Shown here: positions 1 to 24,870 of the stretch, piece by piece | Layout of the letters: each line of letters begins with the position of its first letter | Numbering within the stretch: the first letter of the stretch is position 1 | Translations under genes and position numbers: made by a program | The notes under the pieces: model-generated | What the model was told of the DNA's origin: nothing | The model's input: the letters and a program-made list of their open reading frames with translations, nothing else | Database searches by the model: none | Source: Candidatus Cloacimonadota bacterium | Lineage (GTDB): Bacteria; Cloacimonadota; Cloacimonadia; JGIOTU-2 | Direction of reading: 5' to 3' | NCBI GenBank assembly: GCA_016932035.1 | Contig: JAFGDR010000046.1 | Span: forward strand, 1-34,971 | Length of the DNA stretch: 34,971 nt

Positions 1-335
1 AGGTTATCAATAATCTTCTAACAAATGCAATTAAATATTCACATAAGGGATCAAATGTATTTATTGAAATTGAAGAGAATAAAGAGAGTATTATTCTATC
101 AGTTAAGGATGAAGGGTTAGGCATTGCAAAAGATGAACGAGAACTACTTTTCAAACCCTTTCAGAAGACCGGCACAAAAAGCACAGGTGGGGAAAAGAGC
201 ATGGGACTTGGTTTGTATATTGTAAAGAGAATTATTGATGCGCATAATGGATCGATTAGAGTGAAAAGTGCTGTAAACAAAGGTTCTACATTTTATGTAG
301 AGCTTCCAAAAAATCCAACAGGGAGAGAACAATGA
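1..335 (+). CDS. Sensor histidine kinase, C-terminal ATPase part (5' truncated by window)
   Basis: The reading frame is open from base 3 to the TGA at 333-335. It encodes about 110 residues of a HATPase_c domain. Visible landmarks are an N-box (NNLLTNAIKYS), a G1 box (DEGLGI), an F-box (LFKPFQKTG) and a G2 box (MGLGLYIVKR), in the correct order and ending close to the expected C-terminus. This part binds ATP and would phosphorylate a histidine in the missing N-terminal dimerisation domain. The stop overlaps the next start (ATGA, 332-335), so it is translationally coupled to the receiver-kinase gene downstream, a plausible phosphotransfer partner. The sensing input lies outside the window and cannot be inferred. 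Confidence 0.93.
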   Translation, partial: VINNLLTNAIKYSHKGSNVFIEIEENKESIILSVKDEGLGIAKDERELLFKPFQKTGTKSTGGEKSMGLGLYIVKRIIDAHNGSIRVKSAVNKGSTFYVELPKNPTGREQ

Positions 336-1348
336 AAAGTACAATACTTTTAGTTGATGATGAAATGTATAATCAAAAGATCTATTCGAAAATACTGAAG
401 GATGCAGGATATGAAGTATTGATTGCAAAAGATTCTCAAGAAGCATTTTCAACGTTAGAGAAGACAAAACCGGATATGCTTCTGATTGATATTGTACTTC
501 ATGGTGAATCAGGAATTGATATTCTGAAAGAGATAAGGTCCGATAATGCTCTAAAGGACTTGTTCGTCGTTATGATCACCAGCAAATTAACAACTCGAGA
601 TGACCAGTCAGCAGGTTTGGAGCAGGGAGCAGATGGGTACATTGTACGACCGATTGAAAAAAGGGAACTTGTTGCGCGCATCAATGCATTTATGAAACAT
701 ATACAAACTTTAAAAGCACTCAAAATTAGCGAGGAGCGTTTCAAGATTGCAAACTCGATCCTCCGTCACGATATTACAAATGATCTTACCGTTATACAAA
801 GCGCTCTTTACCTGTATGAAACTGAGAATGACAAGACAATGCTCGATGAGATAAAGAAAAGAGTTGAAATGAGTCTTGATACGATTGCACGGCAAAGGGA
901 GCATGAAATCTTTTTAAATGCACATGTAGAGCTTGATGAATATGATATCGTTGATGTGCTGAATAAAGTAACAATTAATTACCCAGAACTTGAAGTTAGC
1001 ATTAATGGTAAAGGAAAAATCTATGCTGATAATGCTGTTTTTTCAGTCTTCGATAATATAATAAGCAATGCTATCAAGCATGGAAAGTCTAACAAGATAG
1101 ATGTCGATATTACTGCGGATGAAGAGTATTGCACAATTTCATTTGCTGATAATGGTACTGGAATTCCTGATAATATCAAGGATAAGATATTTGATAAGGG
1201 CTTTCACTATGGACCTTCCGGTCATACTGGTATCGGATTGTATATCGTTAAGAAAACTTTGGATGATTACGAAGGTGAAGTCTATGTTGAAGATAATAAT
1301 ACAAAAGGTGCAGTGATAATTCTGAAGATGAGAAAGGTGATGAGTTAA
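332..1348 (+). CDS. Response-regulator receiver / histidine kinase hybrid
   Basis: A 338-residue cytoplasmic protein without membrane segments. Residues 1-125 form a receiver domain with an acidic pocket (D9, D10), phosphoacceptor D53 (LLIDIVL) and T83. The usually conserved lysine before the proline of the fifth strand is an arginine (IVRPIEK, R106). Residues 135-200 are a dimerisation helix pair with probable phospho-His H146 in ILRHDITNDL, a variant of the H-box. Residues 225-335 are HATPase_c with an N-box (DNIISNAIKHG), G1 (DNGTGIP) and G2 (GIGLYIVKKT). It overlaps the upstream kinase by 4 nt and is probably fed by it. The kinase half is clearly paralogous to the C-terminus of the gene at 5809. 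There is no DNA-binding output, so this is a relay component rather than a transcription factor. Confidence 0.93.
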   Translation: MKSTILLVDDEMYNQKIYSKILKDAGYEVLIAKDSQEAFSTLEKTKPDMLLIDIVLHGESGIDILKEIRSDNALKDLFVVMITSKLTTRDDQSAGLEQGADGYIVRPIEKRELVARINAFMKHIQTLKALKISEERFKIANSILRHDITNDLTVIQSALYLYETENDKTMLDEIKKRVEMSLDTIARQREHEIFLNAHVELDEYDIVDVLNKVTINYPELEVSINGKGKIYADNAVFSVFDNIISNAIKHGKSNKIDVDITADEEYCTISFADNGTGIPDNIKDKIFDKGFHYGPSGHTGIGLYIVKKTLDDYEGEVYVEDNNTKGAVIILKMRKVMS

Positions 1349-1370: not shown

Positions 1371-3995
1371 GTGAAAAAGAAGAAAACTGAACAGATACAA
1401 GAATTTTTGAAGGACTGGAAAGCCTTTGTTATTGCCATTCTGATCTTTATAATAGTCTTGTTGGGTAACTCTGTATATTCATACATCAAGATGAAAAAAG
1501 AGACTTTAAAGCAAATCGATGAAAGATTGCATATAGGTGCTCTAACAATAAAAAACATTTTACCATCGGAATTTCATGATCGAGCTATTGATAAAGAGAG
1601 TATTTCTATTGATGAAGATGATCAGAATATTCGAGCTTTATCAGATTTTGCAAATAAAGCTGGTTTCAAATTTCTTTATACGTTAGTAGTAAAAGGAGAT
1701 GACATATATATTACATCTTCTAACGCCACAGAACAAGAGTTAGCAGATAATGAAGAGGTAAGATATTTCACAATTTACCAAGAGGCAGACTCATCCTTCC
1801 AAGAGTCATACAACAATGATTGCATAAGATCATTTACTCACAAAGATAGATGGGGTATTTTCAGAGCTTTAGTTGTTCCTGAAATAAGTCCAGGAGGTAA
1901 TAGATATCTATCTGTGGCTGAACTGGATATTTCATCAGTTGATGCAATCCACAGACAAAAAACCTTAGAAGCTTTTATTCATGCAGTATTGATCGTTATT
2001 GGTTCACTTCCTCTTATATTTGTTCTATACAGCAGATTGCGTCACAGTGTCGAACAAAAGCAAAAAACCGCTCAACTAGAACGGATGGTTTCGCAAAGAA
2101 CCAAGAAACTCGAAGAGAGCGAGAGGAAATTGAAAAGTATTATTGAGAACAGTACTAATCTGTTCTATACGCATACGGTGGATCATAAAATTAGTTTTAT
2201 CAGTCCCCAAGTTCGTGATGTTCTAGGGTATGAACCAGAAGAAGTTATGCAGCGCTGGACAGAGTTTATTACTGATAATCCTATCAATGAGCAAGCCATA
2301 GAGTTCACAGAAAAAGCCATTAAAACCGGAGAACGTCAACCAACCTATCTGCTTGAAATGAAACGTAAAGATGGCAAAAAGATCATTGTTGAGGTAAGGG
2401 AAACCCCGATCCTTGAAAATGGAAAAGTCATGTCAATAGTTGGATCACTTACTGATATTACAGAACGGAAAAAGGCAGAGGAAAAATTAAAGATTAGTGA
2501 AGAAAAACATCGTATTATTAATGAAAATGTTCCTGTCCTTGTATATGCAGCCCTTCCTGATGAACATTCAACCAGTCTCTTTTTGTCAGGTCTTGCTCAT
2601 GAACTTACCGGTTATACAGCCAGAGAACTTATAGAAGATACTACATTGTGGGCAAAGATAATTCATCCGAATGATGCTGACTATGTCTGGCAAAAAATAT
2701 CTGAACATCGCAGGATAAAATCAGTTTTGGATATTGAATATAGGATCATTACAAAAGATAATAAGGTGAAATGGATCCATGATAAAGCGAAACCACTGCT
2801 TGATGAGAAAGGTAATATTCTTCAGATTCAAGGCTTCATGGAAGATATTACGGATCGTAAAAGGAATGAAGAAATAAAAAATATTGTATTTAATATTTCA
2901 CGGGCAGTAAATACTATAGATAATGTTGTGGAACTCTGTAAAAAAATTAGAGAAATTCTCGATACAATTATTGATACATCAAATTTCTATGTAGCTCTCT
3001 ATGATGAAGAAAGAAATATGATTACGTTACCATATATCGTTGATCAAAAAGATGATTTTACAGAATTTCCTCCTGGAAAAACTATGAGCGCACATGTGAT
3101 CAAAACAGGTGAACCATTGCTGGCGGCACGGGAAGTCGTAGAAGATCTTACCAAAAAGGGTATGATCGAAACAATCGGTAGTCATTCTGCAGTATGGCTT
3201 GGAGTTCCTCTTAAAATTCACAATCAGGTTATTGGATTGATCGGTTTGCAAAGTTATGATGATCCGGAACACTATACTGAGAAAGACCTCGAAATCCTGA
3301 ACTTTGTTTCAGAGGAGATCGCGATTGCAATACAGCATATACAATCAACTCAAGATATTAAAAGAGAGTTGAAAGAAAAAGAAGTATTGTTGAGTGAGAT
3401 TCATCATAGGGTAAAAAATAATTTGCAAACCCTGCTTGGACTTCTTCAACTTCAGCAGGAGACAATTAAAACTAAGGAAGATGCGATACGGAGTTTTGAG
3501 GTAAGTCAGGATAGGATATTTGCAATGTCACGAGTGTACGATATGCTCTTAAGGTCAGACTATATGTCAGAAGTAAGTTTAGGTGCATATATTCTCAGTG
3601 TTGCTGAGCATATCAAGCGTTCATATGACCACCATAACAAGATCGAACTTGTGCACTCCTTTGATGAGTTCTATGCAGATACAGTTGCGTTAGGAAAGGT
3701 TGGGCTCATAATAAATGAACTCATTACCAATGCAATGAAATATGCTTTTGCTGATAGAAATAAGGGAACAATATTTATGGGTTTGAAGATTTCTGAGAAG
3801 AGTTGCGAGATAGAAATATCAGATAACGGAATTGGATTACCTGAAAATGTGAGTTTTGATGGAGAAAAGACATTGGGGCTTTCTTTAGTGGATATGATCA
3901 CGATGGAACTGGAGGGTAAAGTGTTTTACAAAGTGGAAAATGGCACACATTTTACGATAACTGTTCCCAAAGAATCTTTAATGAGACAAAAATAA
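1371..3995 (+). CDS. Membrane sensor histidine kinase, PAS-PAS-GAF-HisKA_2-HATPase
   Basis: An 874-residue kinase. It starts at GTG 1371, which has an AGGAGA ribosome site (1357-1362) 8 nt upstream; no ATG fits as well. One membrane segment is at about residues 18-39 and a second at about 200-222, bracketing a probable periplasmic sensing domain of about 160 residues. Next come PAS (about 253-367), PAS (about 377-498), GAF (about 503-658), and a HisKA_2-type dimerisation domain with EIHHRVKNNLQ (likely phospho-His H679). The C-terminal ATPase domain (about 774-870) has LIINELITNAMKYAF and DNGIGLP. Its first PAS is nearly the same as the first PAS of the kinase at 8404. It follows the receiver hybrid by 22 nt, so co-transcription is likely. 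The periplasmic ligand is unknown. Confidence 0.94.
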   Translation: MKKKKTEQIQEFLKDWKAFVIAILIFIIVLLGNSVYSYIKMKKETLKQIDERLHIGALTIKNILPSEFHDRAIDKESISIDEDDQNIRALSDFANKAGFKFLYTLVVKGDDIYITSSNATEQELADNEEVRYFTIYQEADSSFQESYNNDCIRSFTHKDRWGIFRALVVPEISPGGNRYLSVAELDISSVDAIHRQKTLEAFIHAVLIVIGSLPLIFVLYSRLRHSVEQKQKTAQLERMVSQRTKKLEESERKLKSIIENSTNLFYTHTVDHKISFISPQVRDVLGYEPEEVMQRWTEFITDNPINEQAIEFTEKAIKTGERQPTYLLEMKRKDGKKIIVEVRETPILENGKVMSIVGSLTDITERKKAEEKLKISEEKHRIINENVPVLVYAALPDEHSTSLFLSGLAHELTGYTARELIEDTTLWAKIIHPNDADYVWQKISEHRRIKSVLDIEYRIITKDNKVKWIHDKAKPLLDEKGNILQIQGFMEDITDRKRNEEIKNIVFNISRAVNTIDNVVELCKKIREILDTIIDTSNFYVALYDEERNMITLPYIVDQKDDFTEFPPGKTMSAHVIKTGEPLLAAREVVEDLTKKGMIETIGSHSAVWLGVPLKIHNQVIGLIGLQSYDDPEHYTEKDLEILNFVSEEIAIAIQHIQSTQDIKRELKEKEVLLSEIHHRVKNNLQTLLGLLQLQQETIKTKEDAIRSFEVSQDRIFAMSRVYDMLLRSDYMSEVSLGAYILSVAEHIKRSYDHHNKIELVHSFDEFYADTVALGKVGLIINELITNAMKYAFADRNKGTIFMGLKISEKSCEIEISDNGIGLPENVSFDGEKTLGLSLVDMITMELEGKVFYKVENGTHFTITVPKESLMRQK

Positions 3996-4130: not shown

Positions 4131-4790
4131 ATGGATTTTAAGAAACAACTATTAAACGAAATATTGGGGGCGAATAGGGATAATGCGAACAAGATCATTG
4201 ATGCATGGGCTTCCAAACACTCGTATCGCGAAGTGCTACCCGGCATTCTTGAACCCGTTCTTATCCAGATCGGTGACCTATGGAAAGATGAAAAGGTGTC
4301 CTTGGCTCAGGGATACGTAGCCGTGAAGATTGCTGAAGATGTGCTGAATAAAATATTGCAGGATCAGGATACCGATGAGAGTCCTCAAGTCAAAAAAGGC
4401 CCTGTTGTTATTGCTAACATCGAAGATGATTATCACTCTCTTGGCAGGAAAATGGTCGGAACCTTCTTACGGGCAAATGGCTGGGAGGTTGTGGATATGG
4501 GAAATGATGTTCCTGCAGAAGATATTGTAGATAAATGTGAAGAGATTGGTGCAAGGGTGGTTGGGGTGTCTGCAATGATGTTCACCACTGCAAGAAATAT
4601 CAAGAGCTTAAGAGAATGTATCGACCAGAGGGGATTGGAAGATACACTGAAACTTGCGGTAGGTGGAGCTGTGTTCAAACTAAGACCTTCCCTTGTAGAT
4701 GATGTGGGAGGAGATGGAACAGCACCAAGTGCACTACAAGCTCCTGAGCTGTTTGAACAACTCTGGAAAGAGTCAGAGCAAGGAGTCTAG
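4131..4790 (+). CDS. Corrinoid (cobalamin)-binding protein, MtaC/MtbC/MetH-like
   Basis: A 219-residue soluble protein, about the usual length of stand-alone methyltransferase corrinoid proteins. Residues 1-85 form a helical cap domain. Residues 90-215 form a Rossmann-like B12-binding domain. The cobalamin signature DxHxxG is intact (D100, H102, G105), with H102 expected as the lower cobalt ligand. The second motif reads VGVSAMM around S147 (the family usually has SxL), and the GG pair is at 178-179 (AVGGAVF). In known systems such proteins carry a methyl group on cobalt between two methyltransferases. Here no substrate methyltransferase is adjacent. The gene directly abuts the UroD-like gene (TAG 4788-4790, ATG 4791), indicating coupled translation. 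A catalytic or a sensory role is possible; the kinase context favours sensing. Confidence 0.92.
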   Translation: MDFKKQLLNEILGANRDNANKIIDAWASKHSYREVLPGILEPVLIQIGDLWKDEKVSLAQGYVAVKIAEDVLNKILQDQDTDESPQVKKGPVVIANIEDDYHSLGRKMVGTFLRANGWEVVDMGNDVPAEDIVDKCEEIGARVVGVSAMMFTTARNIKSLRECIDQRGLEDTLKLAVGGAVFKLRPSLVDDVGGDGTAPSALQAPELFEQLWKESEQGV

Positions 4791-5816
4791 ATGAATAGTA
4801 AGGAGCGACTAGGTGCAGTCCTGACCGGTGAAAAGCAGGACCGCCAGATGTTTACTGCAACCCTGAGCATGTACGGAGCTAAACTGATTTCATGCCCACT
4901 GAAAGAGTATTATAATGATGCAGAAAAATATCTCTTGGGGCAGCAGCAGGTTGTGGAAAAGATACAGCCTGATATTATATTCTCTCCCTTTTCAATCCCC
5001 CTGGAAGCACACGCATTTGGCTCAAAGATCATCTATTTCCCCAAAAATCCTCCAAATGTTACGGCTCCTGTTCTAACTAATGCTGATGAGATCGATACTT
5101 TCACGATTCCCAAACTCAAAACCTCTCCACCTCACACGTATTTTCTTGATTCGATACAACGACTTGCAGATCAGTATAAAGGCATCATTCCTATTGCAGC
5201 TCCCACAAGCAGTCCGGTTGATTTCCCAATTCTTCTCATGGGAATTGAAGGTTGGCTCGATACCTTTCTTTTTAAAAGAAAACAAGCCAGAAAATTAATT
5301 GAAATGCTTATCGAATATTTTGTGGAATGGGCTAATATCCAGCTGCAAGCCGGGGCAGATTTTGTTGTTGTACCGGTTATTTTCAGTAATCCTGAGTTCC
5401 TCACTCGGGATCTCATACAAAAAGAAACACTACAGTATTACAACGCTGCATTTTCACAGATCAATGGTCCGATCGTGCTTCATCACGGTGGAGCAAAAAT
5501 GAACAATTTCATCTCGAATTTTGCAAACCTTTCTAATGTCGCAGCTTTTGTTATCGATTATAAAGATTCATTCTCTGAAGCTCGATCAGAGATTAGGGAG
5601 CGACCAGTACTTGTTGGCAATCTCGATGGTCCCAATCTCTGGCGTTTTGATGCAGAGCAAATGAAAAAAGTGTGTGAACATAAAAAAAAGCAGATGACCG
5701 GTGCAGGGAAGATCATACTGGGAACATCAAATGCTGATGTCGCTTATGATACTCCTCTTGAAACCTTACAGGCACTGTATACCTTCGTTGAAGAAGACTG
5801 GAGATTTGATGGATAA
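4791..5816 (+). CDS. Uroporphyrinogen decarboxylase / MtaA-family methyltransferase-like protein
   Basis: A 341-residue soluble TIM-barrel-type protein of the UroD superfamily, full length for MtaA/MtbA-like proteins. Family features are NSKERLGAVLTGEKQDR at the N-terminus, a central barrel, IVLHHGG near residue 231, GNLDGPNLW and a C-terminal DTPLETLQAL. In corrinoid:coenzyme M methyltransferases the zinc site is HxC plus a late Cys in a GPGC-like motif. Here the first motif reads H231-H-G233 and the late motif GTSN (N314), so both cysteines appear replaced. Canonical zinc-thiol activation therefore looks unlikely, and the protein may handle another methyl donor/acceptor or act as a non-catalytic partner. 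It abuts the corrinoid gene with no gap and overlaps the DUF1638-kinase gene by 8 nt. True heme-pathway HemE is unlikely in this context. Confidence 0.87.
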   Translation: MNSKERLGAVLTGEKQDRQMFTATLSMYGAKLISCPLKEYYNDAEKYLLGQQQVVEKIQPDIIFSPFSIPLEAHAFGSKIIYFPKNPPNVTAPVLTNADEIDTFTIPKLKTSPPHTYFLDSIQRLADQYKGIIPIAAPTSSPVDFPILLMGIEGWLDTFLFKRKQARKLIEMLIEYFVEWANIQLQAGADFVVVPVIFSNPEFLTRDLIQKETLQYYNAAFSQINGPIVLHHGGAKMNNFISNFANLSNVAAFVIDYKDSFSEARSEIRERPVLVGNLDGPNLWRFDAEQMKKVCEHKKKQMTGAGKIILGTSNADVAYDTPLETLQALYTFVEEDWRFDG

Positions 5817-8310
5817 CATACAAGGAATAGCGTGTTCGATATTCAAAGAAGCGATCACAAAACTTCAGCAGGAAGGCAAAATAACAATTCCATTTACATA
5901 TATTGATTCCCATAATCATATGCATCCTGAGAAGCTTGAAGCTGAACTTGATGCACTGATCCAGAAAGATGAAAAAACATTACTTGTTTTTGGAGATTGC
6001 CATGCAAATATGGTTGATCTTGAGACCAATGAAAATATCTCACGTGTAAAAGGAATGAACTGCGTAGAAGTTTTTCTCGGATCTGAACAATACCGCGAGC
6101 TGGTAAGACAAGGTGCTTTTTTCCTGTTACACGAATGGACAAGAAGATGGGAAAAGGTTTTCAAGGATTGGCTTGGACTCAACGAAAAAAATGCCAAAGA
6201 TTTTATGCACGAGATGCATTCACAGCTCATATACGTTGATATCGGACTCTCTCCGATTCCGGAAAAAGAGCTGGAAAAAATATCAAAATACTGCGATCTG
6301 CCGTATTCGATCTTGAAGACTGATCTGCAGCATATCGAAAAATCTATTCAGAACTCACTCAAGAAATTTCAAGAAATTGATAAACATAATGAACCAAGAA
6401 CTCGAGCATATGACTTTCTTGTCGTTGATTTAGTAGAAAAATTGCTCACCTTCGCTTCATCTTCAGAACAATGCAGTAAAATAATTGCACAGACTATTCG
6501 TGAACTTATCGGCGTGAAAGCAGTGGCTGTGATCGAGCACGAAAAGAATAATTCTACAGACAAAGATACACTTCTGAGCATAGAACCGGCAAGAAGAAAG
6601 AAACAATATGAAAGTGCTGATATAAATGCTCTTATCTCTGAAATCAAGTCTTTCGATGAAGTTGAAGTTTTAGATAAAGAAGTACCTAACAACGTGCTTA
6701 CAGGCTTTCTTTCGAAATATTCCATAGAAAAGATCGGTGTGCTCCCTCTCAAAGTAAGTGCTCAGAGGATCGGCAGTATACTCTTGCTCGATCTTTATGA
6801 TGACCGGAATATCCAGGCTGTACTTGAAAGCATTAAGATGATCTCAAGTATCATTGCGTTGATCCTCCAGAACTCGAACATCATAGATAATCTCGAAAGT
6901 ATCATTGATGTACGTACTTCAGAACTTGAACTGAGTAAAGAACGGGCAGAACTGATAACGAGAACAGTTCCAAACGGTATCTTCACGGTCGATACGGATA
7001 GAATTGTAACGAGCTGGAATCCGATGAGCGAAAAGATCACTGGTTATGCTGCTGATGAGATCATTGGTCAGTCCTGTTCTGTTTTTGCTATCAATACATG
7101 CGGGGATGTATGTCGCGTCTTTGATGAGGGAAAATCAATATTGGGAGCTGAATGTATAATCAGATGTAAGGATGGAACTGAGAAACATGTGCTGAAAAAT
7201 ACAGATCTTTTGCGGGATAAGCAGGGGAACATAATAGGAGCTATTGAAAGTTTTGAGGATATTTCTGAGAGATTAGAGAACCAGAGAAAAGTTAAAGATA
7301 GTGAAATGAAGTTTAAATCCCTTTATGAATATATGAATGAAGGGATATGCTTACATGAACTTGTGTATGATGAAACTGGAACACCAATAAACTATAAGAT
7401 TATCGATGTGAACAAAAAATATGAAACGAGCTTGGGCTTAAATAAACAGACTATTCAAAATCAACTTGCTACAAATGTATATAAAACTAAAGAAGCACCA
7501 TATCTAAAAGAATATGCTGAGGTAGTAAAAACTAAAAAACCATTTAGTTTTCAAACATATTTCGAACCCCTGGATAAACATTTCTATATTTCTGCTTTCT
7601 CACCTGAAAAGGATAGATTTGCTACAGTTTTTCTTGATATTACAGATAGAATTAAAGCCGAGGAAGCTTTAAACCTCAATAGAGATAGACTCAAAACTGC
7701 GAACTCCATCCTCCGTCATGACATTACAAATGATTTCGTCGTAATCCAGAGTGCTGTTGATATTTTTAGAGATGAACAGGATGAATCGTTGCTCGATGAA
7801 ATTGAGAAACGGGTGCAAATGAGTCTCGATACGATTGCATGGCAACGCGAACATGAGAACTTCTTGAGTGAGCATGCAGAACTCGATGAATATGACATAA
7901 GAAACGTTATAGAAAAAGTTCTAAGCAAGTATTCATACCTGGATTCAAAGATCAACGGAAAAGGTGCAGTATTTGCTGATAGGGCAATATATTCAGTTAT
8001 CGGAAACATTGTGAGCAACGCTGTGAAACACGGGAGAACAAATAAGTTAGATGTGACAATATCCGATGAAGACAATTTCTGCGTTGTGCGCATTGCAGAT
8101 TCCGGTATTGGTATTCCCGATGAGATCAAGAGTCATATCTTTCATAAAGGATTTCATTACGGACCTGCAGGACATACCGGTATCGGGTTGTATATCGTGC
8201 AAAAGACTATGGATGAATACGGCGGAGAAGTATATGTAGAGGATAATAAACCCAAAGGCACGGTGATTATCCTGAAGATGAGGAAGGTGATACATGATAT
8301 CGCTCTCTAA
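5809..8310 (+). CDS. DUF1638-like / GAF-like / PAS-PAS sensor histidine kinase fusion
   Basis: 833 residues from ATG 5809, which overlaps the end of the UroD-like gene by 8 nt; an upstream in-frame ATG would lie deep inside that gene. Residues 1-185 resemble DUF1638, with TLLVFGDCHANM (C64), NCVEVFLGSEQY (C85), FFLLHEW (H108) and QLIYVDIGL in family order. Residues 205-360 look like a divergent GAF domain. PAS1 (380-485) is cysteine-rich (C423, C431, C435, C449, C453), and PAS2 spans about 500-615. The dimerisation helix has ILRHDITND (H637), followed by HATPase_c (SNAVKHG, GIGIPDE, GIGLYIVQKT). There are no membrane segments. DUF1638 proteins are usually free-standing neighbours of corrinoid methyltransferase genes, and fusion to a kinase is unusual. 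The likely input is the state of the co-encoded corrinoid/UroD pair. Confidence 0.88.
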   Translation: MDNIQGIACSIFKEAITKLQQEGKITIPFTYIDSHNHMHPEKLEAELDALIQKDEKTLLVFGDCHANMVDLETNENISRVKGMNCVEVFLGSEQYRELVRQGAFFLLHEWTRRWEKVFKDWLGLNEKNAKDFMHEMHSQLIYVDIGLSPIPEKELEKISKYCDLPYSILKTDLQHIEKSIQNSLKKFQEIDKHNEPRTRAYDFLVVDLVEKLLTFASSSEQCSKIIAQTIRELIGVKAVAVIEHEKNNSTDKDTLLSIEPARRKKQYESADINALISEIKSFDEVEVLDKEVPNNVLTGFLSKYSIEKIGVLPLKVSAQRIGSILLLDLYDDRNIQAVLESIKMISSIIALILQNSNIIDNLESIIDVRTSELELSKERAELITRTVPNGIFTVDTDRIVTSWNPMSEKITGYAADEIIGQSCSVFAINTCGDVCRVFDEGKSILGAECIIRCKDGTEKHVLKNTDLLRDKQGNIIGAIESFEDISERLENQRKVKDSEMKFKSLYEYMNEGICLHELVYDETGTPINYKIIDVNKKYETSLGLNKQTIQNQLATNVYKTKEAPYLKEYAEVVKTKKPFSFQTYFEPLDKHFYISAFSPEKDRFATVFLDITDRIKAEEALNLNRDRLKTANSILRHDITNDFVVIQSAVDIFRDEQDESLLDEIEKRVQMSLDTIAWQREHENFLSEHAELDEYDIRNVIEKVLSKYSYLDSKINGKGAVFADRAIYSVIGNIVSNAVKHGRTNKLDVTISDEDNFCVVRIADSGIGIPDEIKSHIFHKGFHYGPAGHTGIGLYIVQKTMDEYGGEVYVEDNKPKGTVIILKMRKVIHDIAL

Positions 8311-8318
8311 TGATTTAA

Positions 8319-8348
8319 TTGACACGGATTAAATAAATTGATTATTAA
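8319..8348 (+). promoter_or_regulatory. Candidate promoter for the seven-PAS kinase
   Basis: A perfect TTGACA (8319-8324) is followed after 18 nt by TATTAA (8343-8348, four of six to TATAAT). It lies in the 93-nt gap between the DUF1638-kinase stop and ATG 8404. The start is further supported by AAGGAG at 8387-8392. This suggests the gene at 8404 has its own transcription start rather than depending only on the upstream operon. Confidence 0.5.
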
Positions 8349-8403
8349 TAATATGGTTTTTACTGTATAAAATTGCAAAGTACGAGAAGGAGTAATCAAT
8401 TAG

Positions 8404-11400
8404 ATGGGTAATAAAAGGCATGATCCAATAAAATTTCTGATCCTGGAAGACAATCTCGCTGATGCTGAACTTATTCAACGTATGTTACAAAAAATTAATA
8501 AGAATTATGATACCACAGTCGCACATGATAAAACGCAATTCATTTATCTGCTTGAAAATTATATGCCGGATATCATACTCTCTGATTTTTCCTTGCGCCA
8601 GTTCAATGGACTGGAAGCGCTTGAAATAGTCAAGCAAAAATACCCAGATATACCATTCATAATTGTAACTGGTACGCTGGATGAGGAAAGAGCCGTCATG
8701 TGTCTTAAAGAAGGAGCCTGGGACTATGTGCTTAAGCATAAACTCTTTAAACTTAAACCAGCAATCGAAAGAGCTCTGGAAGTACACAAAAAGATACTTG
8801 AAAAGAGAAAAACCGAAAAGGATTTACTGGAAAGTGAAAATAAACTGAGAAATATTATTGAGAACAGCACAAATCTTTTCTATACACACTCAGTGGATCA
8901 TAAAATCACATTTGTAAGTCCGCAAGTTCGTGAAATACTGGGATGTGAGCCAGAAGAAGCAATGAAACGTTGGACGGATTTTGCAACGGATAATCCGATA
9001 AACGAAAAGGGATTCAAACTGACCGAAAAAGCAATTAAAATAGGAAAACGCCAGCCGATTTACGAACTTGAATTACAGCGTAAAGATGGCAGAAAGATAA
9101 TCGTTGAAGTTAGGGAGTCACCTATTGTTGAAAATGGAAAAGTCGTGTCAATCGTAGGATCTCTTGCAGATATTACTGAACGAAAAAAAGCAGAAGAAGC
9201 GTTAAAAGAAAGTGAGGAACGCTTTAAAAAATTATCAAATTTAACGTTTGAAGGTATCTTGATCCATGATAATGGTGTGGTCGTTGATGCGAATCAATCA
9301 TTGCTTGATTTGTTTGGATATACTTTGGAGGAAGTCATTGGTAAAAACATGCTTGAGCTCGCTATTCCAAAAGAGTTTCATAAAGAGATATTTGGATATT
9401 TTCAAAGCAAAATAGTTGAACCATATCAGATCGAAGCTGTTAAAAAAGACTGCACACGCTTTCCTATCGAGGTAATTGCAAAAGAGGTAATGATAAAAGG
9501 AAAATCACATAGAGTTGCTGCAATTAGAGATATCACTGAAAAGAAAAAAGCAGAAGAAGTTCTTGAACAGTCTAAAAGAAGTTATGAAGCAATTTATAAC
9601 AACTCGACGGACTGCATCTTTATACATGATGGGAAAACAGGGGAAATCGTCGATGTAAACCAGGCTACTCTTGATGTTTTCGGCTACACCAAAGATGAAA
9701 TAAGAAAGTTAAATGTTGGTGATCTTAGTCTTAATGAACCGCCTTATACTCAGAAGGAGGCAGTACAATTTATTCGTAGAGCTGTGAAAGAAGGTGCGCA
9801 ATACTTTGAATGGCTGGCAAAAAAGAAAAATGGTGAGTTGATCTGGTTTGAAAACAGTTTAAAATTTGCTGAGATTGCTGGTGAACAGCAAGTTCTTGTT
9901 ATCGGCAGAGATATTTCAGATCGTAAAAAAGCGGAAAAAGAACTTAAAAAAGCACAAATGTTTGCCGATAAGATCGCTGAAACTACACCAGCTTTATTAT
10001 ATATTTATGACCATCAAAAGAGTAAAAATATCTGGACTAATGAAGTTCATAAGAATTACTTCAAAAAATTAGTTAAAAGCTATCCCGAAATGCATTACAA
10101 AAATGTGGTAGAAGTTATCCACAAAGACGATTTTGCCAGAGTTTTAGAGGAAACTGAAAAATTGAATAGTGATCAGCAACTGGATAGATTCAGTTTGGAT
10201 ATCAGAATTAAATCAACCGGTAAAGATTGGAAGTGGATGACGTTAATAACCTCTGCATTCAAAAGAGATGAAAATGGCAAATTACTGCAAACGATAGGTG
10301 CTCTTTTTGACATCACTGAAAGAAAGAAAGTTGAAGAGGATTTGAGAGAAAGTGAAGAAAGATATGAAAGGGTGGTAAACTATACAAATGATGTACTCTA
10401 TTCATTATCTCCTCAAGGAAAGATTGAATTTATATCTCCAAAGATCAAAAAATATGGTTATTCTAAAGAAGATATTCTTGGTAAAAGGTTTGAAACGTTT
10501 GTCCATAAGGAAGACGCTAATATTATTGGTGCTCAATTTATGGAAACCTTAAAAACTGGAAAAATATTCCCTCCTGTAAGCTTCAGGATTCTGAAAAAAG
10601 ACAAAAGCATTGCTTATGTTGAGGAAGATGGAAGTCCAATCAAAGATAGTGAAGGAAGAATAATAGGGATTACAGGAGTTTTAAGAGATGTTACAGAAAG
10701 AAAAAAAGCAGAAAAAGAATTCTTTGAAGTAAGTGAAAGATTGGAACTTGCAATGGATGCTGGAGAGCATGGTTTTTGGGATTGGAATCTTGATACAAAT
10801 GATGTCTATTTCAGCCCTTGTTATTATAGAATGCTGGGCTATGAAACAGGTGAACTACCGATGAAATTAGAAACATGGGTAAAACTTTTGCATCCTGATG
10901 ATAGAAAAACCATTGTATCAAAAGTTGAAAATTATGTTAAGAAAGCGCAGCCATATGAAGTTGAATTCAGACTGAAAACAAAAGATGGAGATTGGAGATG
11001 GATAGCAGGTAGAGGAAAATCCTATCAAAAGGATAAAGATGGAGTTCCACATAGAGCAGTTGGTGTTCATGTTGACATTACAGAACGTAAGCAAGCTGAA
11101 GAAGAATTAAAGCAAAGCGAAGAACGCTTCAAGACGCTTTCCAACCTTACCTTTGAAGGAATTCTGATTCATGATAATGGTGTAGTAATTGACACAAATC
11201 AATCTCTAATGGAAATGTTTGGTTATTCTCGAGATGAAGTAGTTGGTAAGAGTATTTTTCAGTTGGCGATACCCAACGAATTCCATGAGGAAATTTTTGG
11301 ATATTTTAAGAGCAAGTCTGTTGATCCTTATCAAATTGAAGCAGTAAAAAAAGATGGAACACGTTTACCGATAGAGATTGTAGCCAAAGATGTTATTATT

Positions 11401-12108
11401 GATAATAAAAAACTTAGAGTAGCTGCTATAAGAGACATCACAGAACGTAAGGTAGCAGAAGAAAAGATCGAAAAAGAGCTGAGAGAAAATAGGTTACTTC
11501 TGAGTGAGATCCATCACAGAGTAAAAAATAATCTCCAGACCTTATCCGGTCTTCTTCAATTGCAGCAGGATCTGATCGAAACAAAAGAAGATGCAATCAA
11601 AGCATTTGAAGCAAGCCAGGACAGGATCATGGCTATGGCACGTGCCTATGAGCTTCTCCTGCACTCGGAACATATGTCTGATGTGAATGTTCCTGAATAT
11701 ATCGAGAGTATTGTACGGCAACTCAAGTTCTCTTATGATCCTGAAAGCAGGGTTTTTGTTGATTATTATCTTGATAACTGCGAAATGGAAATCCAGGAGT
11801 TGAGTAAAACCGGTCTGATCATTAACGAGCTTGTAAGCAATGCTTTTAAATATGCTTTTCAGGGAAGAGAGCAGGGACGTCTTGAGCTGTCCGTATACGA
11901 AAAAAATAATATAATTTACTTTGAAATAGCAGATGATGGAGTAGGTTTACCCAAAGATATCGATTTTGAGGGAACCGAAACGCTTGGTCTTTCACTTGTG
12001 AGTATGATGATCAAGGAACTGAAGGGAAAATTTACGTATAATGTAGATAAGGGAACGCGATTTATTATCGAAATACCAAAGGGTACAAAAAAACAGATTC
12101 GTCGTTAA
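8404..12108 (+). CDS. Receiver + seven PAS + HisKA_2 histidine kinase
   Basis: A 1234-residue soluble hybrid kinase. Residues 10-130 are a receiver with phosphoacceptor D61 (IILSDFSL), VTGT and a terminal DYVLKHKL lysine, the Rcp-like pattern. Seven PAS domains follow at about 148-262, 273-384, 393-509, 516-642, 651-766, 778-896 and 906-1018, most ending in the DITERKKAEE-type linker. The dimerisation domain has EIHHRVKNNLQ (H1038), and the HATPase has GLIINELVSNAFKYAF and DDGVGLP. PAS2 and PAS7 are close internal duplicates, and PAS1 is close to the first PAS of the kinase at 1371. With an N-terminal receiver it could be a downstream step in a relay from the neighbouring kinases. It ends 2 nt before the convergent Mrp stop, with no room for a terminator between them. 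Confidence 0.94.
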   Translation: MGNKRHDPIKFLILEDNLADAELIQRMLQKINKNYDTTVAHDKTQFIYLLENYMPDIILSDFSLRQFNGLEALEIVKQKYPDIPFIIVTGTLDEERAVMCLKEGAWDYVLKHKLFKLKPAIERALEVHKKILEKRKTEKDLLESENKLRNIIENSTNLFYTHSVDHKITFVSPQVREILGCEPEEAMKRWTDFATDNPINEKGFKLTEKAIKIGKRQPIYELELQRKDGRKIIVEVRESPIVENGKVVSIVGSLADITERKKAEEALKESEERFKKLSNLTFEGILIHDNGVVVDANQSLLDLFGYTLEEVIGKNMLELAIPKEFHKEIFGYFQSKIVEPYQIEAVKKDCTRFPIEVIAKEVMIKGKSHRVAAIRDITEKKKAEEVLEQSKRSYEAIYNNSTDCIFIHDGKTGEIVDVNQATLDVFGYTKDEIRKLNVGDLSLNEPPYTQKEAVQFIRRAVKEGAQYFEWLAKKKNGELIWFENSLKFAEIAGEQQVLVIGRDISDRKKAEKELKKAQMFADKIAETTPALLYIYDHQKSKNIWTNEVHKNYFKKLVKSYPEMHYKNVVEVIHKDDFARVLEETEKLNSDQQLDRFSLDIRIKSTGKDWKWMTLITSAFKRDENGKLLQTIGALFDITERKKVEEDLRESEERYERVVNYTNDVLYSLSPQGKIEFISPKIKKYGYSKEDILGKRFETFVHKEDANIIGAQFMETLKTGKIFPPVSFRILKKDKSIAYVEEDGSPIKDSEGRIIGITGVLRDVTERKKAEKEFFEVSERLELAMDAGEHGFWDWNLDTNDVYFSPCYYRMLGYETGELPMKLETWVKLLHPDDRKTIVSKVENYVKKAQPYEVEFRLKTKDGDWRWIAGRGKSYQKDKDGVPHRAVGVHVDITERKQAEEELKQSEERFKTLSNLTFEGILIHDNGVVIDTNQSLMEMFGYSRDEVVGKSIFQLAIPNEFHEEIFGYFKSKSVDPYQIEAVKKDGTRLPIEIVAKDVIIDNKKLRVAAIRDITERKVAEEKIEKELRENRLLLSEIHHRVKNNLQTLSGLLQLQQDLIETKEDAIKAFEASQDRIMAMARAYELLLHSEHMSDVNVPEYIESIVRQLKFSYDPESRVFVDYYLDNCEMEIQELSKTGLIINELVSNAFKYAFQGREQGRLELSVYEKNNIIYFEIADDGVGLPKDIDFEGTETLGLSLVSMMIKELKGKFTYNVDKGTRFIIEIPKGTKKQIRR
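9217..9558 (+). repeat. Intragenic PAS duplicate, copy A (PAS2 of the 8404 kinase)
   Basis: This segment encodes a PAS domain whose core (LSNLTFEGILIHDNGVV, then AIPKEFHKEIFGYF, PYQIEAVKKD and RVAAIRDITE) recurs almost unchanged at 11122-11459 in the same protein. Differences at DNA level fall largely in third codon positions, so the duplication is old and kept under protein-level constraint. Confidence 0.85.
11122..11459 (+). repeat. Intragenic PAS duplicate, copy B (PAS7 of the 8404 kinase)
   Basis: Second copy of the PAS domain at 9217-9558, immediately before the dimerisation helix. It shares LSNLTFEGILIHDNGVV, the HEEIFGYF stretch and PYQIEAVKKDG. Four unrelated PAS domains lie between the two copies, so both ends of the PAS array may sense the same ligand class. 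Confidence 0.85.
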
Positions 12109-13923: not shown

Positions 13924-13999
<76 letters not shown>

Positions 14000-14012: not shown

Positions 14013-17000
14013 ATGAGTAAATATAATAACGTATTACGCACATTCAGAAATAAATATGTTCTCAATCTATTTCTTGAGAACATACTCTACCTGATCGCGA
14101 TTTTAGCACTTTTCTTCATTCTATTTTCCTTTTTGTGCTTTAAACTTACAACATCTTATGAATTTTATGAACCCTTGACATTTTGGTCATTGGCATCGAA
14201 GATCATAACGGGTTTATTGTTCATTGTCTTTATCATTAGATTTCTTTTAAATATCCCGAGCATGCACACAATTGCTCGAAAAGTATCAGAAACGAATCCT
14301 GAGAAAAATGAGATCATTCTTTCTGCTTACGAATTAGACAAACGATTTGACCTTTCTGACTATTCGAAAGAAATTCTGGATAAAGCAAGAAAAGATGCAG
14401 ATGAAAGGTCATCCGAACTCTCATATAAAGATATTTTTCAGTTATTTGGACTAAGAAGGGCGTTTCAATCTTTTCTTTTTGGGGTGGTGGCACTTATTAT
14501 TGTATTACTCATTAACCCAATTGTATTGAAAACTTCTTCCAACATAATATTTCATCCATCCTCATTTGCACCAAAATATGATTCTTTTATTATTGTTAAG
14601 CCGGGTAATGCAAGGATTCTTAAGGGAAATTCTCTTCAAATTGATGTTATAAATTTCTATCCCGAACTATCATATATCCTGAATATTGAAAAGCAAAAAC
14701 GATGGCAGGATTTCCAGCTCGATACAGCAACGCATACGATTTACAATGTTACAGAGAACATCAGGTACACTATTGCTAATGAATATGCAAACTCAGACAC
14801 TTTTACTATCGAGGTTCTCGAAAAACCAATTGTGAAGAATCTGGGAATTCGATATGACTATCCAGCTTACACGAAACTTACTGACAGAGTTGACCAAGAC
14901 ATTTCAGGAAAGATCGTGGCGATCAAAGGTACTGAAATTGTACTTGATTTAATTGTCAATAACGAACTGACTGATTATCGGATCGTCTTTTCTGATGGTA
15001 CGACTCACGAGCTAACAAAAATCGGGAAATTCGCTTATAGAACAGCGTTTACCGTTGATAAAAGTAGTAGTTATCATTTTTATTTTAAGGACATTCTGGG
15101 AAATACGAACAATATTGTTGAGCGAACTATTTTTGCTGAAGAAGATCTACAACCCAAGATCGAGATCATGTTCCCTGCACGTGATAAAATCCTTGCTCAG
15201 AATATGCAGGAACGGATCGATTTCACTGCTTCTGATGATTTTGGGGTAGACCGCATAGATATTCTCTACAAGAAAAATGATGGTGAATATATTTCCAGAA
15301 CAGTGTTTGATACGACTGGAATTACCACACTCACTGCGAGTTATAACTTTGATGTGACAGATCAGAATCTTCTACCCGGAGATGTGATATTCTATTATTT
15401 GCAGGTATATGACAATTGTACTGTACCCGAAGCACAAACAGCAAAAACAAAGATTTACCTCTTGAAATTCCCTTCGATCGAAGAACTGTATGATGAAATA
15501 CAAAAGCAGCAATCGGGGAACATGGATGATATGCGTGAGTCTCTCGAAGAATCGAGGAAAAATAAACAGAAGTTCGATGAGTTGAGACGTAAGTTCTTGA
15601 AAAATGAAGAGATGGACTGGCAGCAAAAGGAGGATCTGAAAGAGGTCATCAAAAAGCAGCAGGAGCTTGCTAAAAAAGCAGAGGAGGCTGCCAAGGAGTA
15701 TGAGAAATTTGTCGATGAACTCGAAAAGAACAATGCAGTTGCACGGGAAACGCTTGAGAAATTAAAGCAAATTCAAGAATTAATGAAGGATATCTCATCT
15801 CCTGAACTTGAAACAGCAATGAAAGAGCTTCAAAAGCAGATGGAAAAGATCTCTCCTGAGCAAATGAAGAATGCATTGAATAACTTCAAATTTTCACAGG
15901 AAGATTTTAATAAGAAGCTTGAGCAAACCCTTAAACTGCTCAAAAGCATACAGCTCGAGCAAAAATTACAGGAAGCGCTTCAAAAAGCTAAAGAATTGGA
16001 AAAACTTCAGGAAGATCTAAACAAACAGACATCAGAGAGGATAGATAAAAAACAGGATTTAAGTGAATTAGCTCAATCCCAATCTGACATCCAGGAAGGG
16101 TATCAGTCTCTTAAAAAAGAGCTGGAAGAGTTAACAAAGGAACTGGCTGCTCATAATGAAAAGAATGCTGCCAACGAACTTGAAAAAGGGTTGCAGCAAG
16201 CAACGCAGAATCAACTTTCAGATAGTATGCAAAAAGCTGTAGAAATGCTCAAGCGTGATAATCCTCAGTGTAAGAGGGAACAGACCAATATTCAGGTTGG
16301 TTTTTCAGAACTTAGAAATTCAATTTGCATGGCGCAAATGAAGATGCAGGCATCTCTGTTCACAGAGTTTCAGAAATTGTTAAAAAAGACATTGAATGAA
16401 CTCCTTTATTATTCACAAAAGCAGGAGATCTTTCTCGATAAATCCTACAGTACATATGATATTCTCGATCAAGAGATCAGTATGTATGAAGGTATTAAAA
16501 ATTCAGTAAATACGCTTTTCCGCGACCCGATGATGATCCTCATGATGGATCCAAAATTCTTTCCGCATTCAGCAATGGCACTCAATAACTTTGAGAAAAT
16601 GTTTGATAGAATTTCTGAGAATAGCCATGCAAATATCGAGCAAGATAAAGTTGATATCCTGCATTCAATAAATCTTATGATCATTGATCTTCTTCTTTCA
16701 AAAAGCAAGCAGCCGCAAGGTTCTGGTGGAAGTATGCAGCAACTTCTGCAGCAGCTTCAACAGATGTCCCAGGGGCAGCAATCGATCAATATGCTTACCC
16801 AGGCACTACTCGAGCAGTTCATGAGCCAGCAGAGCCAGGGAATGGGACTTTCAGACGAACAAAAGCAGATGCTGGATAGAATTGCAGGTAATGAGCAGCA
16901 GATCAAGGAGAATTTCGAACGAATGCTGAGAGACTACCCCGAAGCTGAAAAACTGCTTGGTAATATGGAAGGATTGAAAGGGGATTTAAAAGAGGTTGTT

Positions 17001-17291
17001 GATAAGCTTCAGCAGGGCATTATCGACGATCAGGTCATCAGAAAGCAGGAAAATATTCTATCTCGACTTTTGGATGCGCAACGTTCCATTCATGAAAGGG
17101 ATTACAGTAAGAAAAGAGAGTCCGAAACTCCCAACCAGGAAACATGGGAAGTTCCTGATGATCTTATCATTGATACAACAAATATGGAAGTTAGGGATAT
17201 TCTGAAATACATTAATGAGAATTATCCCGAAGAATATCATCGTCTTATCAAAGAATACCTGGAAAAAATACAGCATGAAAATAATAAATAA
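14013..17291 (+). CDS. Large DUF4175-like membrane protein with coiled coil
   Basis: 1092 residues. Hydrophobic segments are at about 24-44, 57-79 and 153-172. They are followed by an extracytoplasmic beta-rich part (about 180-480, with Ig-like strands such as FTVDKSSSYHFYFKD) and then a long K/E/Q-rich coiled coil (about 500-760). Residues about 900-960 are Gln/Met/Ser-rich (QQLLQQLQQMSQGQQS). This layout matches DUF4175-like proteins of FCB and other bacteria, whose function is not established; an envelope role is likely. ATG 14013 lies 13 nt after the tRNA CCA and has no visible ribosome site, so translation may start on a processed, nearly leaderless message. The 3' end overlaps the TPR gene by 17 nt, so the two products probably work together at the envelope. 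Confidence 0.88.
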   Translation: MSKYNNVLRTFRNKYVLNLFLENILYLIAILALFFILFSFLCFKLTTSYEFYEPLTFWSLASKIITGLLFIVFIIRFLLNIPSMHTIARKVSETNPEKNEIILSAYELDKRFDLSDYSKEILDKARKDADERSSELSYKDIFQLFGLRRAFQSFLFGVVALIIVLLINPIVLKTSSNIIFHPSSFAPKYDSFIIVKPGNARILKGNSLQIDVINFYPELSYILNIEKQKRWQDFQLDTATHTIYNVTENIRYTIANEYANSDTFTIEVLEKPIVKNLGIRYDYPAYTKLTDRVDQDISGKIVAIKGTEIVLDLIVNNELTDYRIVFSDGTTHELTKIGKFAYRTAFTVDKSSSYHFYFKDILGNTNNIVERTIFAEEDLQPKIEIMFPARDKILAQNMQERIDFTASDDFGVDRIDILYKKNDGEYISRTVFDTTGITTLTASYNFDVTDQNLLPGDVIFYYLQVYDNCTVPEAQTAKTKIYLLKFPSIEELYDEIQKQQSGNMDDMRESLEESRKNKQKFDELRRKFLKNEEMDWQQKEDLKEVIKKQQELAKKAEEAAKEYEKFVDELEKNNAVARETLEKLKQIQELMKDISSPELETAMKELQKQMEKISPEQMKNALNNFKFSQEDFNKKLEQTLKLLKSIQLEQKLQEALQKAKELEKLQEDLNKQTSERIDKKQDLSELAQSQSDIQEGYQSLKKELEELTKELAAHNEKNAANELEKGLQQATQNQLSDSMQKAVEMLKRDNPQCKREQTNIQVGFSELRNSICMAQMKMQASLFTEFQKLLKKTLNELLYYSQKQEIFLDKSYSTYDILDQEISMYEGIKNSVNTLFRDPMMILMMDPKFFPHSAMALNNFEKMFDRISENSHANIEQDKVDILHSINLMIIDLLLSKSKQPQGSGGSMQQLLQQLQQMSQGQQSINMLTQALLEQFMSQQSQGMGLSDEQKQMLDRIAGNEQQIKENFERMLRDYPEAEKLLGNMEGLKGDLKEVVDKLQQGIIDDQVIRKQENILSRLLDAQRSIHERDYSKKRESETPNQETWEVPDDLIIDTTNMEVRDILKYINENYPEEYHRLIKEYLEKIQHENNK

Positions 17292-23101: not shown

Positions 23102-23119
23102 TAAATGTATGGAGGTCTC

Positions 23120-24211
23120 ATGAAAAAGGGTATAGCTATTGCTTTATTTTTGATGATATGTATGCCGTGCATGGCGCAGAATCTATTGAACGGTCCCGAG
23201 GATATGATCTACTATCCTGCAGATGTATGCTTTTATGTTTCAAATTGGGCAGGTAATAATATTATACGAATCGATCAGGATAACAATCAGACATTATTTA
23301 AATCCAGTATCACTCATGCTCATGGTATGCTGAGGGATGGTGACACTTTGTATGTTGCGTCAAATTCTTATATTAAGAAGATAGATTTGCAGAGTTCAAC
23401 GACGGTACAATCATATTATATTGTTGGAGCTCAGCGACTTGGTCATATAACAACAGACAACAATAGCATTCTGTACGCGTCAGATTGGAATAATGGGAAG
23501 ATCTTCACATTGGATCTCAATACCGGTCAATCACAGACGCTTGCGACGGACCTGCCAACGCCGGTTGGAATTTCGTATGATGAAGAAAATGCACGATTGA
23601 TCCTGTGCTGTATGGAAGATTATGCTCCTGTTCGGGCTGTTGATATCACGACGGGTAATGTAACCGAAATAGCGTATCCAAATCTTGGTTCTTTAGATGC
23701 TATTACAGAAGATGACAACGGGTACTACTATATATCCGTGTGGTCAGAAAGCGCGATTTACAAATTTGATCATGATTTTCTGAACACAGCTGAGCTTATC
23801 TCAAGTGGTCATAATGGTCCTTCGGGTCTTGAATATTATCCGGAACTTAATGCATTGGGTGTAACGAACTATAATTCAAATTCTGTTTCATTGATCTATC
23901 TTGGAACAAGTTTAGATGATCCAAATCAACACGACAAATCATTATGTGTCGCATATCCTAATCCTTTAAAGCAAAGCATTTCTTTTGAATTTCATAACAT
24001 GAGTATGTCTTCAAACGTACGTAAGAGTGCAATCTATAATTCGAAGGGACAGCATATCATTGATTTGAATCTATCATGTACAGAAAACTGTTTTATTTCA
24101 TCATGGAATGGACACGATTCGATGGGAAGAGCTGCTGTTCCGGGTGTTTACTTTGTCGTCATACAAAATGGAACTGATCGTATAACAAAAAAATTACTCT
24201 TGATAAAATAA
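23120..24211 (+). CDS. Exported beta-propeller protein with type IX secretion sorting domain
   Basis: 363 residues from ATG 23120, which has GGAGG at 23111-23115 and opens a signal peptide (MKKGIAIALFLMICMPCMAQ); the longer start at 23105 would precede the ribosome site. Residues about 25-270 resemble an NHL/SMP-30-type propeller, with repeats such as YVSNWAGNNIIRID, YASDWNNGKIFTLDLNTG, YISVWSESAIYKFD and GVTNYNSNSVSLI. Residues about 275-363 are a C-terminal sorting module (VAYPNPLKQSISFEF, SAIYNSKGQHI, PGVYFVVIQNG, KKLLLIK). It is therefore probably secreted across the outer membrane and surface-attached. Second gene of the TetR operon. The ligand is unknown; sugar or protein binding is possible. 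Confidence 0.85.
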   Translation: MKKGIAIALFLMICMPCMAQNLLNGPEDMIYYPADVCFYVSNWAGNNIIRIDQDNNQTLFKSSITHAHGMLRDGDTLYVASNSYIKKIDLQSSTTVQSYYIVGAQRLGHITTDNNSILYASDWNNGKIFTLDLNTGQSQTLATDLPTPVGISYDEENARLILCCMEDYAPVRAVDITTGNVTEIAYPNLGSLDAITEDDNGYYYISVWSESAIYKFDHDFLNTAELISSGHNGPSGLEYYPELNALGVTNYNSNSVSLIYLGTSLDDPNQHDKSLCVAYPNPLKQSISFEFHNMSMSSNVRKSAIYNSKGQHIIDLNLSCTENCFISSWNGHDSMGRAAVPGVYFVVIQNGTDRITKKLLLIK

Positions 24212-24242
24212 AAAAAGTGTTTACACAAAACATGGAGGTCTC

Positions 24243-24860
24243 ATGAAAAAAATTATCACGTGTGGGGTAATAATACTCCTCTTTCTTTCAGCATCGCTTT
24301 GTGCTGATAATGTTAGGGCACTTGTAATTGTACCCACTCAGTATGGTGCAAACAGTTTCCTGATTATAGAGAAACTGCGGGAAATGGGCTTGGATATTAC
24401 AACGACAGGCGTTACGGTTACTGTGCCGCCTTGTTTCTGGGGAGAATCGATCACTGTTGATCTGTTGGTCTCAGAGGTTTCGAACATAGCTGATTATGAT
24501 TGTCTCATACTATTTCCAGCACAATCATATGCAAATCCTGCAGGTGCGTATAATACGATCCTCAATTCGAATGCTGCAATGGATTTGTTCGTGAACGCAA
24601 ATGCTAACGGATTGGTGATCTTTGCCACCTGCGCCGGTGTTCGCTGTCTTGCAGCGGCAGATATCATCAATGGCGTCAACATCACTGGCAAAGATTACTA
24701 TCTTCAAGAATATATCGATGCAGGAGCAAACTTTCTGGGAACGCAGATCCCTGCAGTCATCGATGGAAATATCGTAACGTCAACACGCGGTCAGTACTAT
24801 TGGCAGCAGAATATTGAAGCGATCAGGACAGCAATGGAAAACCTGATCAGTTCACGATAG
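24243..24860 (+). CDS. Exported DJ-1/PfpI-family protein
   Basis: 205 residues, with a signal peptide (MKKIITCGVIILLFLSASLCA, residues 1-21). The remainder resembles the DJ-1/PfpI fold: ALVIVPTQYG near the N-terminus, YDCLILFPAQS, and the nucleophile elbow FATCAG with C130, followed by LAAADIINGVNITG as in the family's usual 'LA.AGLL.G...T'. Family members are glyoxalases, chaperones, proteases or amidases; most are cytosolic, so export is notable. No sorting domain is seen, so it probably stays in the periplasm. The ribosome region repeats that of the previous gene (ATGGAGGTCTCATG). Gaps are 31 nt before and 10 nt after, within the TetR operon. Substrate unknown. Confidence 0.82.
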   Translation: MKKIITCGVIILLFLSASLCADNVRALVIVPTQYGANSFLIIEKLREMGLDITTTGVTVTVPPCFWGESITVDLLVSEVSNIADYDCLILFPAQSYANPAGAYNTILNSNAAMDLFVNANANGLVIFATCAGVRCLAAADIINGVNITGKDYYLQEYIDAGANFLGTQIPAVIDGNIVTSTRGQYYWQQNIEAIRTAMENLISSR

Positions 24861-24870
24861 GGGAGGTATC

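Follow-up and report, generated by a model that had tools for sequence, protein, structure and literature searches.

The DNA analysed here, referred to below as the window, is a stretch of 34,971 nucleotides from a Candidatus Cloacimonadota bacterium (assembly GCA_016932035.1, contig JAFGDR010000046.1, positions 1 to 34,971). Between positions 4131 and 8310 it carries three genes coding for a corrinoid (B12-binding) protein, a protein of the URO-D superfamily and a histidine kinase that starts with a DUF1638 domain. The open frames (4131-4790, 4791-5816 and 5809-8310) all lie on the forward strand, with 0 nucleotides between the first two and an overlap of 8 nucleotides between the last two, as a first-pass annotation made from the letters alone had described. 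Judging from domain content and gene order, the corrinoid, URO-D and DUF1638 proteins very probably constitute a sensory input module. The module is fused here to its output; in the form that is commoner elsewhere, the kinase is encoded by a separate fourth gene. The genes and domains of the trio, followed by two neighbouring genes, are listed below.

4131-4790, forward strand: corrinoid (B12) protein of 219 residues, with a helical cap and a base-off/His-on B12 domain (DDYHSLG)
4791-5816, forward strand: URO-D-superfamily methyltransferase-like protein of 341 residues, candidate ligand- or methyl-donor-binding subunit
5809-8310, forward strand: DUF1638 / GAF-like adaptor / PAS / histidine kinase fusion of 833 residues, from the ATG at 5809
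5809-6396, forward strand: DUF1638 domain of the fusion, residues 1-196, with conserved C9, H37, C64 and C85
6400-6948, forward strand: GAF-like adaptor of the fusion, residues ~198-380, homologous to the N-terminus of the separate kinases of four-gene loci
6949-7272, forward strand: PAS domain of the fusion, residues ~381-488 (PF13426, PAS_9, 1.3e-12)
7633-8292, forward strand: kinase core of the fusion, of a resident genus-specific type, residues 609-828, with H637 at 7717-7719
8404-12108, forward strand: kinase with a receiver, multiple PAS domains and HisKA_2, 93 bp 3' of the fusion, a possible phosphotransfer partner
332-1348, forward strand: receiver-kinase likely to represent the source type of the fusion's kinase core, to which its own core is 62% identical

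The nature of each protein was established by profile searches. The corrinoid protein matches the B12-binding family PF02310 (E=8.1e-21, 74.5 bits) and the cap family PF02607 (E=3.8e-5, 24.2 bits), both matches passing the cut-off. Its DxHxxG motif is intact, as had been noted before, with D100, the axial H102 and G105. The cap contains W51 and L58, at positions which we take to be those of F708 and L715 of MetH. The second protein belongs to URO-D (PF01208, E=2.7e-42). The resemblance of the kinase N-terminus to DUF1638 was borne out by a match to PF07796 at residues 32-179 (E=4.7e-27, 95.3 bits for a gathering cut-off of 27), and the GAF-like part that follows is similar to the kinase of locus L032 (BLAST E=1e-31). 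The fusion further matches HATPase_c (Pfam, E=1e-20) and retains intact kinase boxes (H637 in RHDITND, N-box at 733, G1 at 764 and G2 at 785), with no match to the Pfam HisKA model. No membrane domain was found in it by the Pfam domain search, which included no membrane-helix predictor. The trio sits in a cluster of kinases, as first proposed: the products of 332-1348, 1371-3995 and 8404-12108 are kinases or receivers according to Pfam, and a receiver-PAS-HisKA_2 gene like 8404-12108 also stands 3' of the DUF1638/kinase pair in L011. The H, N, G1 and G2 boxes, the PAS and GAF domains and the neighbouring receivers are shared with two-component phosphorelay kinases, whereas the input, which consists of three proteins taken from corrinoid methyl transfer, is not.

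For the comparison with other genomes, the module was defined as genes for a B12 protein, a URO-D protein and a DUF1638 protein in this order, followed by or fused to an output protein led by a GAF domain, an arrangement that includes the window trio. One genome per species was scanned in 84,980 species with the corrinoid protein alone as bait, and downstream genes were detected by six-frame profiles; the rates hold for the corrinoid subfamily that served as bait. The scan returned 51 loci (43-56% identity), among them L028, the Cloacimonadota locus used in the query. On the same strand and directly 3' of the corrinoid gene, URO-D was present in 50 of the 51 loci and DUF1638 in 49, and a kinase was detected next in 44. 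Gene order is thus conserved, and its recurrence across many phyla places the arrangement far beyond chance. Exceptions are four loci that reach a contig end (L020, L023, L039 and L056), a truncated kinase (L063), a missing URO-D (L028), an HD-GYP output (L036) and finally L018, where the corrinoid and URO-D genes are followed by the gene of a 275-residue protein that starts with the same GAF-like domain, without DUF1638. At this last locus (8001-10540, Desulfoluna), the GAF-like protein has a cysteine-rich end (LCSFCKKI...ICPDC) and is followed not by a kinase but by a chemoreceptor with a Cache domain. The hosts belong to Desulfobacterota (many of them Geobacteraceae), Spirochaetota, Verrucomicrobiota, Planctomycetota, Bacteroidota, Clostridia, Omnitrophota, Myxococcota, Nitrospirota and Armatimonadota, among others. 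Geomonas edaphica (L034) and Desulfocicer vacuolatum (L033) are isolates that carry the set. The distribution is patchy, since 26 of the 141 genomes of the order of Geomonas carry the corrinoid protein. Clustering of flanking genes across the loci gave no recurrent neighbour except the kinase and therefore suggests no regulon; tblastn gave no match to the DUF1638 domain on plasmids.

The strongest evidence for a sensory input unit comes from fusions, both among the parts of the module and between these parts and signalling outputs of three kinds. The separate kinases of the four-gene loci open with a homologous GAF-like domain, recognised as GAF by Pfam in 23 of 49 homologues, and their start codon often overlaps the stop codon of DUF1638. 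The outputs contain HATPase_c in 47 of 49 cases, a C-terminal receiver in 30 and HisKA_2-type domains in 4, besides the HD-GYP protein of L036. URO-D is fused to DUF1638 in L061 and L063, and DUF1638 is fused to the output, as in the window, in L038, L023, L036 and throughout a second lineage. This second lineage (L010, L017, L096-L102) is divergent from that of the window (lineage 1) and has the same order of corrinoid, URO-D and DUF1638, the last being fused to an output in 9/9 loci. Its hosts are Cloacimonadota (G053 and G122), Geomonas, Clostridia, Armatimonadota and others. Seven of the nine outputs are Pfam-confirmed kinases or kinase-receivers; L099, from Geomesophilobacter, has a GGDEF domain and no output is recognised in L102. 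The earlier view of the trio as a signalling unit that is not part of a methyltransferase operon was upheld: outputs (histidine kinase, histidine kinase-receiver, HD-GYP, GGDEF) are exchanged and the input parts, GAF included, stay. A metabolic methyltransferase trio, co-transcribed with a kinase that senses something else, appears very unlikely in comparison with these observations. All three families do otherwise belong to methyltransferase pathways, but DUF1638 occurs joined to signalling enzymes (kinases, HD-GYP, GGDEF), the distances of the GAF part follow those of the trio, and neither an acceptor methyltransferase nor RamA nor a recurrent metabolic neighbour was found.

In Geomonas sp. 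Red32 (L102, 1010-10799), one contig carries a four-gene module of lineage 1 and, at a distance of about 2 kb, a module of lineage 2 whose DUF1638 protein has 462 residues and no recognised output domain. In the Cloacimonadota genome G044 (L012), a URO-D protein with an intact HIC...SSGC motif (4512-5528) has in its vicinity, on the opposite strand, a second-lineage DUF1638 that stands alone (7022-7411).

The window kinase is, by its sequence matches, a chimaera of a foreign input module and a resident kinase core, because the core matches host kinases and the DUF1638 and GAF parts match four-gene loci. Residues 609-828 share 70% identity with a kinase encoded on host contig C15 and 62% with that of the 332-1348 product; the core reaches up to 60% identity to kinases of sister species and only ~20-30% to the four-gene kinases. 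That the core has such near relatives on further contigs and in sister species speaks against a binning error. In lineage 1, the distance matrices of the corrinoid, URO-D, DUF1638 and GAF parts correlate with one another at r=0.91-0.94, against 0.38-0.42 with the kinase cores, a difference that fits output swapping. The fusion and the loss of partners might instead reflect the decay of an acquired system. DUF1638 was found in 0/16 same-genus and same-family genomes searched, the trio being absent there, and the four-gene form prevails elsewhere. Such a degenerate remnant is nonetheless hardly credible, as none of the three frames is disrupted, the motifs for catalysis and cofactor are retained and the same type of fusion arose in other loci of both lineages.

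The host genome (2.44 Mb, 95% complete) was characterised by profile searches, on which all genome-wide statements rest. Its sole DUF1638 and its sole URO-D are those of the trio. The RamA C-terminal domain PF14574 was found neither near the trio nor elsewhere in the genome, in line with the proposed absence of a RamA-like activator and in contrast with RamA-dependent corrinoid methyltransferase operons, and the genome search gave no MTTB-type methyltransferase. We read its one pterin-binding protein as dihydropteroate synthase. Four B12-binding proteins are encoded, and the three outside the trio are by our reading a mutase subunit, a B12 radical-SAM protein and a photoreceptor-like protein, so that only that of the trio looks like a methyl-transfer corrinoid protein.

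Like the B12 photoreceptors (CarH/LitR and photocobilins), the module uses a cap and a B12 domain in signalling and keeps the cap GxxW motif. The outputs of these photoreceptors vary (PMC10979010, PMC11796333) and include a diguanylate cyclase (PMC11796333), which would suit a light sensor of the CarH or photocobilin type using adenosylcobalamin. The four elements of the light signature, GxxW, EH, GxxH and GxxxP (PMC11796333), are however present in 61/62, 0/62, 0/62 and 27/62 module corrinoid proteins, respectively, yet all four occur in another B12 protein of the same host (L014). The additional URO-D and DUF1638 subunits, foreign to the photoreceptors, would also be left unexplained. Light sensing is thus extremely improbable, and its CarH-type form was rejected on the signature residues. 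At L014 (864-3865 on host contig C15, minus strand), this B12 protein combines cap, B12-binding domain and full light signature and adjoins a kinase of membrane type that shares 70% identity with the window fusion in its core; a B12 light sensor possibly feeds the same kinase family in this genome. In L059 (3434-5309), the gene of a CarH-type B12 protein with the EH motif directly precedes that of a histidine kinase, and a lineage-1 module follows about 2.5 kb downstream.

The nearest solved relative of the 4791-5816 product by sequence is the methylcobalamin:coenzyme M (CoM) methyltransferase 4ay7, and the fold of a URO-D homologue agrees with it (TM-score 0.87, normalised to 4ay7). The former label 'MtaA/UroD-like' holds as far as the superfamily is concerned but does not extend to CoM methylation. 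Among the zinc ligands His-x-Cys...Cys, the histidine is kept, the HxC cysteine is replaced by glycine and the distal cysteine is missing; none of 53 aligned URO-D proteins from the two lineages has the HxC...C motif. With the zinc cysteines missing, methylation of CoM or another thiol in the way of MtaA is unlikely. The role of a zinc-dependent CoM methyltransferase was discarded for want of these ligands. Scores for the MtaA, MtbA and CmuA subfamilies of NCBIfam stay at 73-101 bits, under cut-offs of 235-600. Residues invariant across lineage 1 include His231, Asn277 and Asp316. The superfamily also includes the substrate methyltransferases MtvB, OdmB, VdmB and CdmB, and zinc-free action is described for CdmB, MtvB and a Moorella enzyme (PMC13222342). 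By homology, the window protein may itself be a substrate methyltransferase (methyltransferase I), which weakens the argument of the first-pass annotation from the absence of such an enzyme. With the URO-D methyltransferase systems (MtaABC, MtbA, OdmB/MtvB/VdmB, CdmBC), the module has in common the corrinoid cap, the DxHxxG motif and the URO-D fold, and DUF1638 genes also occur beside those systems. It differs from them by scores under the NCBIfam cut-offs of TIGR02370, PRK06252, TIGR01463, MtaA and MtbA (for the methyltransferase-cognate corrinoid family TIGR02370, 99.2 bits with a curated cut-off of 215.3), by the absence of zinc cysteines and of a nearby RamA or methyltransferase II, and by a kinase or other signalling output in their place.

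The DUF1638 domain was predicted with confidence by AlphaFold2 (pLDDT 95.4). It has no relative in the PDB by sequence and no convincing fold match there (best E=0.019, TM-score ~0.2), and therefore no mechanism can be borrowed from a solved counterpart. C9, H37, C64 and C85 are conserved in lineage 1 and could form a metal or cofactor site, judging from conservation. A functional tie between DUF1638 and corrinoid proteins is indicated by Phaeobacter, where the B12-dependent methionine synthase requires a DUF1638 protein (PMC5764234); in Ruegeria, DUF1638 is more abundant on methylated osmolytes (PMC12478193). These proteins belong to the same family and are likewise linked to a cap-plus-B12 protein. 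They are stand-alone, serve methionine synthase or glycine betaine use and are accompanied by a RamA-like reactivation protein (PMC5764234, PMC12478193), whereas the DUF1638 of the module is tied to signalling outputs. The other DUF1638 genes of module-bearing genomes are also mostly stand-alone, several of them adjoining RamA or methyltransferases. In the tree, the 50 lineage-1 domains lie on one side of a branch with support 99/86, apart from the RamA-linked DUF1638, some long branches making the fine placement unsure. RamA is absent in 14/29 module-bearing genomes; the other 15 have matches on other contigs or >40 kb from the module.

The best explanation of these data, which we consider probable, is a soluble three-protein sensor of corrinoid methyl chemistry that drives exchangeable outputs, the output in the window being a kinase. 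That the signal is a methyl or corrinoid state seems fairly likely. By homology, the URO-D protein would act as the receptor, binding a small methylated compound or a product and passing a methyl group to the corrinoid protein or taking one from it. DUF1638 would recognise the state of the corrinoid, i.e. Co(I), Co(II) or methyl-Co(III), or the complex carrying it, as its fusions and conserved order suggest. The GAF adaptor, next to DUF1638, would relay the change to the kinase, from which phosphate would reach receivers of the kinase cluster next to the trio, again by homology. We infer the order of these contacts and the receiver partner of the relay. A more specific form of this sensor is proposed tentatively, with somewhat more doubt than conviction: detection would be the catalytic transfer of a methyl group from an environmental or metabolic methyl compound to the corrinoid, with an enzyme as receptor and the methyl-cobalt bond as the bound signal. 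DUF1638 would then be the reader, kinase and cyclic-di-GMP outputs would be interchangeable across many anaerobic phyla, and variants of URO-D would set the ligand specificity.

Several points weigh against the sensor of methyl chemistry. The URO-D protein could bind without methyl transfer; the absence of RamA in 14/29 hosts leaves the reset of a methylated or oxidised corrinoid unexplained; the co-variation of the corrinoid, URO-D, DUF1638 and GAF parts is partly shared descent; and B12 proteins that sense light share the invariant cap Trp51, even if the module lacks two of the four light elements. Some of these observations would suit a sensor of redox or cobamide status, reading the redox state or occupancy of the corrinoid, with URO-D as a structural or inhibitory subunit and no methyl transfer. 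URO-D proteins without the zinc cysteines of MtaA, RamA missing in about half of the hosts and the conserved Cys/His residues of DUF1638 are in favour of it, and in hosts that are largely anaerobes Co(I)/Co(II) could report redox. Such a sensor is still unlikely: zinc-free URO-D methyltransferases such as CdmB exist (PMC13222342), and a URO-D protein present in 50/51 loci with invariant His231, Asn277 and Asp316 seems beyond the needs of a scaffold.

The input module apparently has no described counterpart in the open-licence literature searched, where no system of this composition was found, as first stated; phosphorelays as such are already known. If the sensor of corrinoid methyl chemistry proved right, it would be a widespread class of sensory input and account for the function that numerous corrinoid, URO-D and DUF1638 proteins have outside methyl metabolism. 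DUF1638, a family without assigned biochemical function, would gain a testable role as a reader of corrinoid proteins. The sensor would further reveal a way in which anaerobes, among them metal reducers, sulfate reducers and Cloacimonadota, may perceive methylated compounds or the corrinoid state. The natural GGDEF and HD-GYP versions make simple in vitro assays possible.

Elsewhere in the window, an open reading frame of 1092 residues (14013-17291) without any Pfam match lies directly 3' of a tRNA-Thr gene (13924-13999). The region 23105-34970 encodes a series of proteins that are probably secreted and end in sorting domains (PKD, Laminin_G, kelch and FG-GAP matches); the gene of a TrmB-type regulator lies at 31834-32706.

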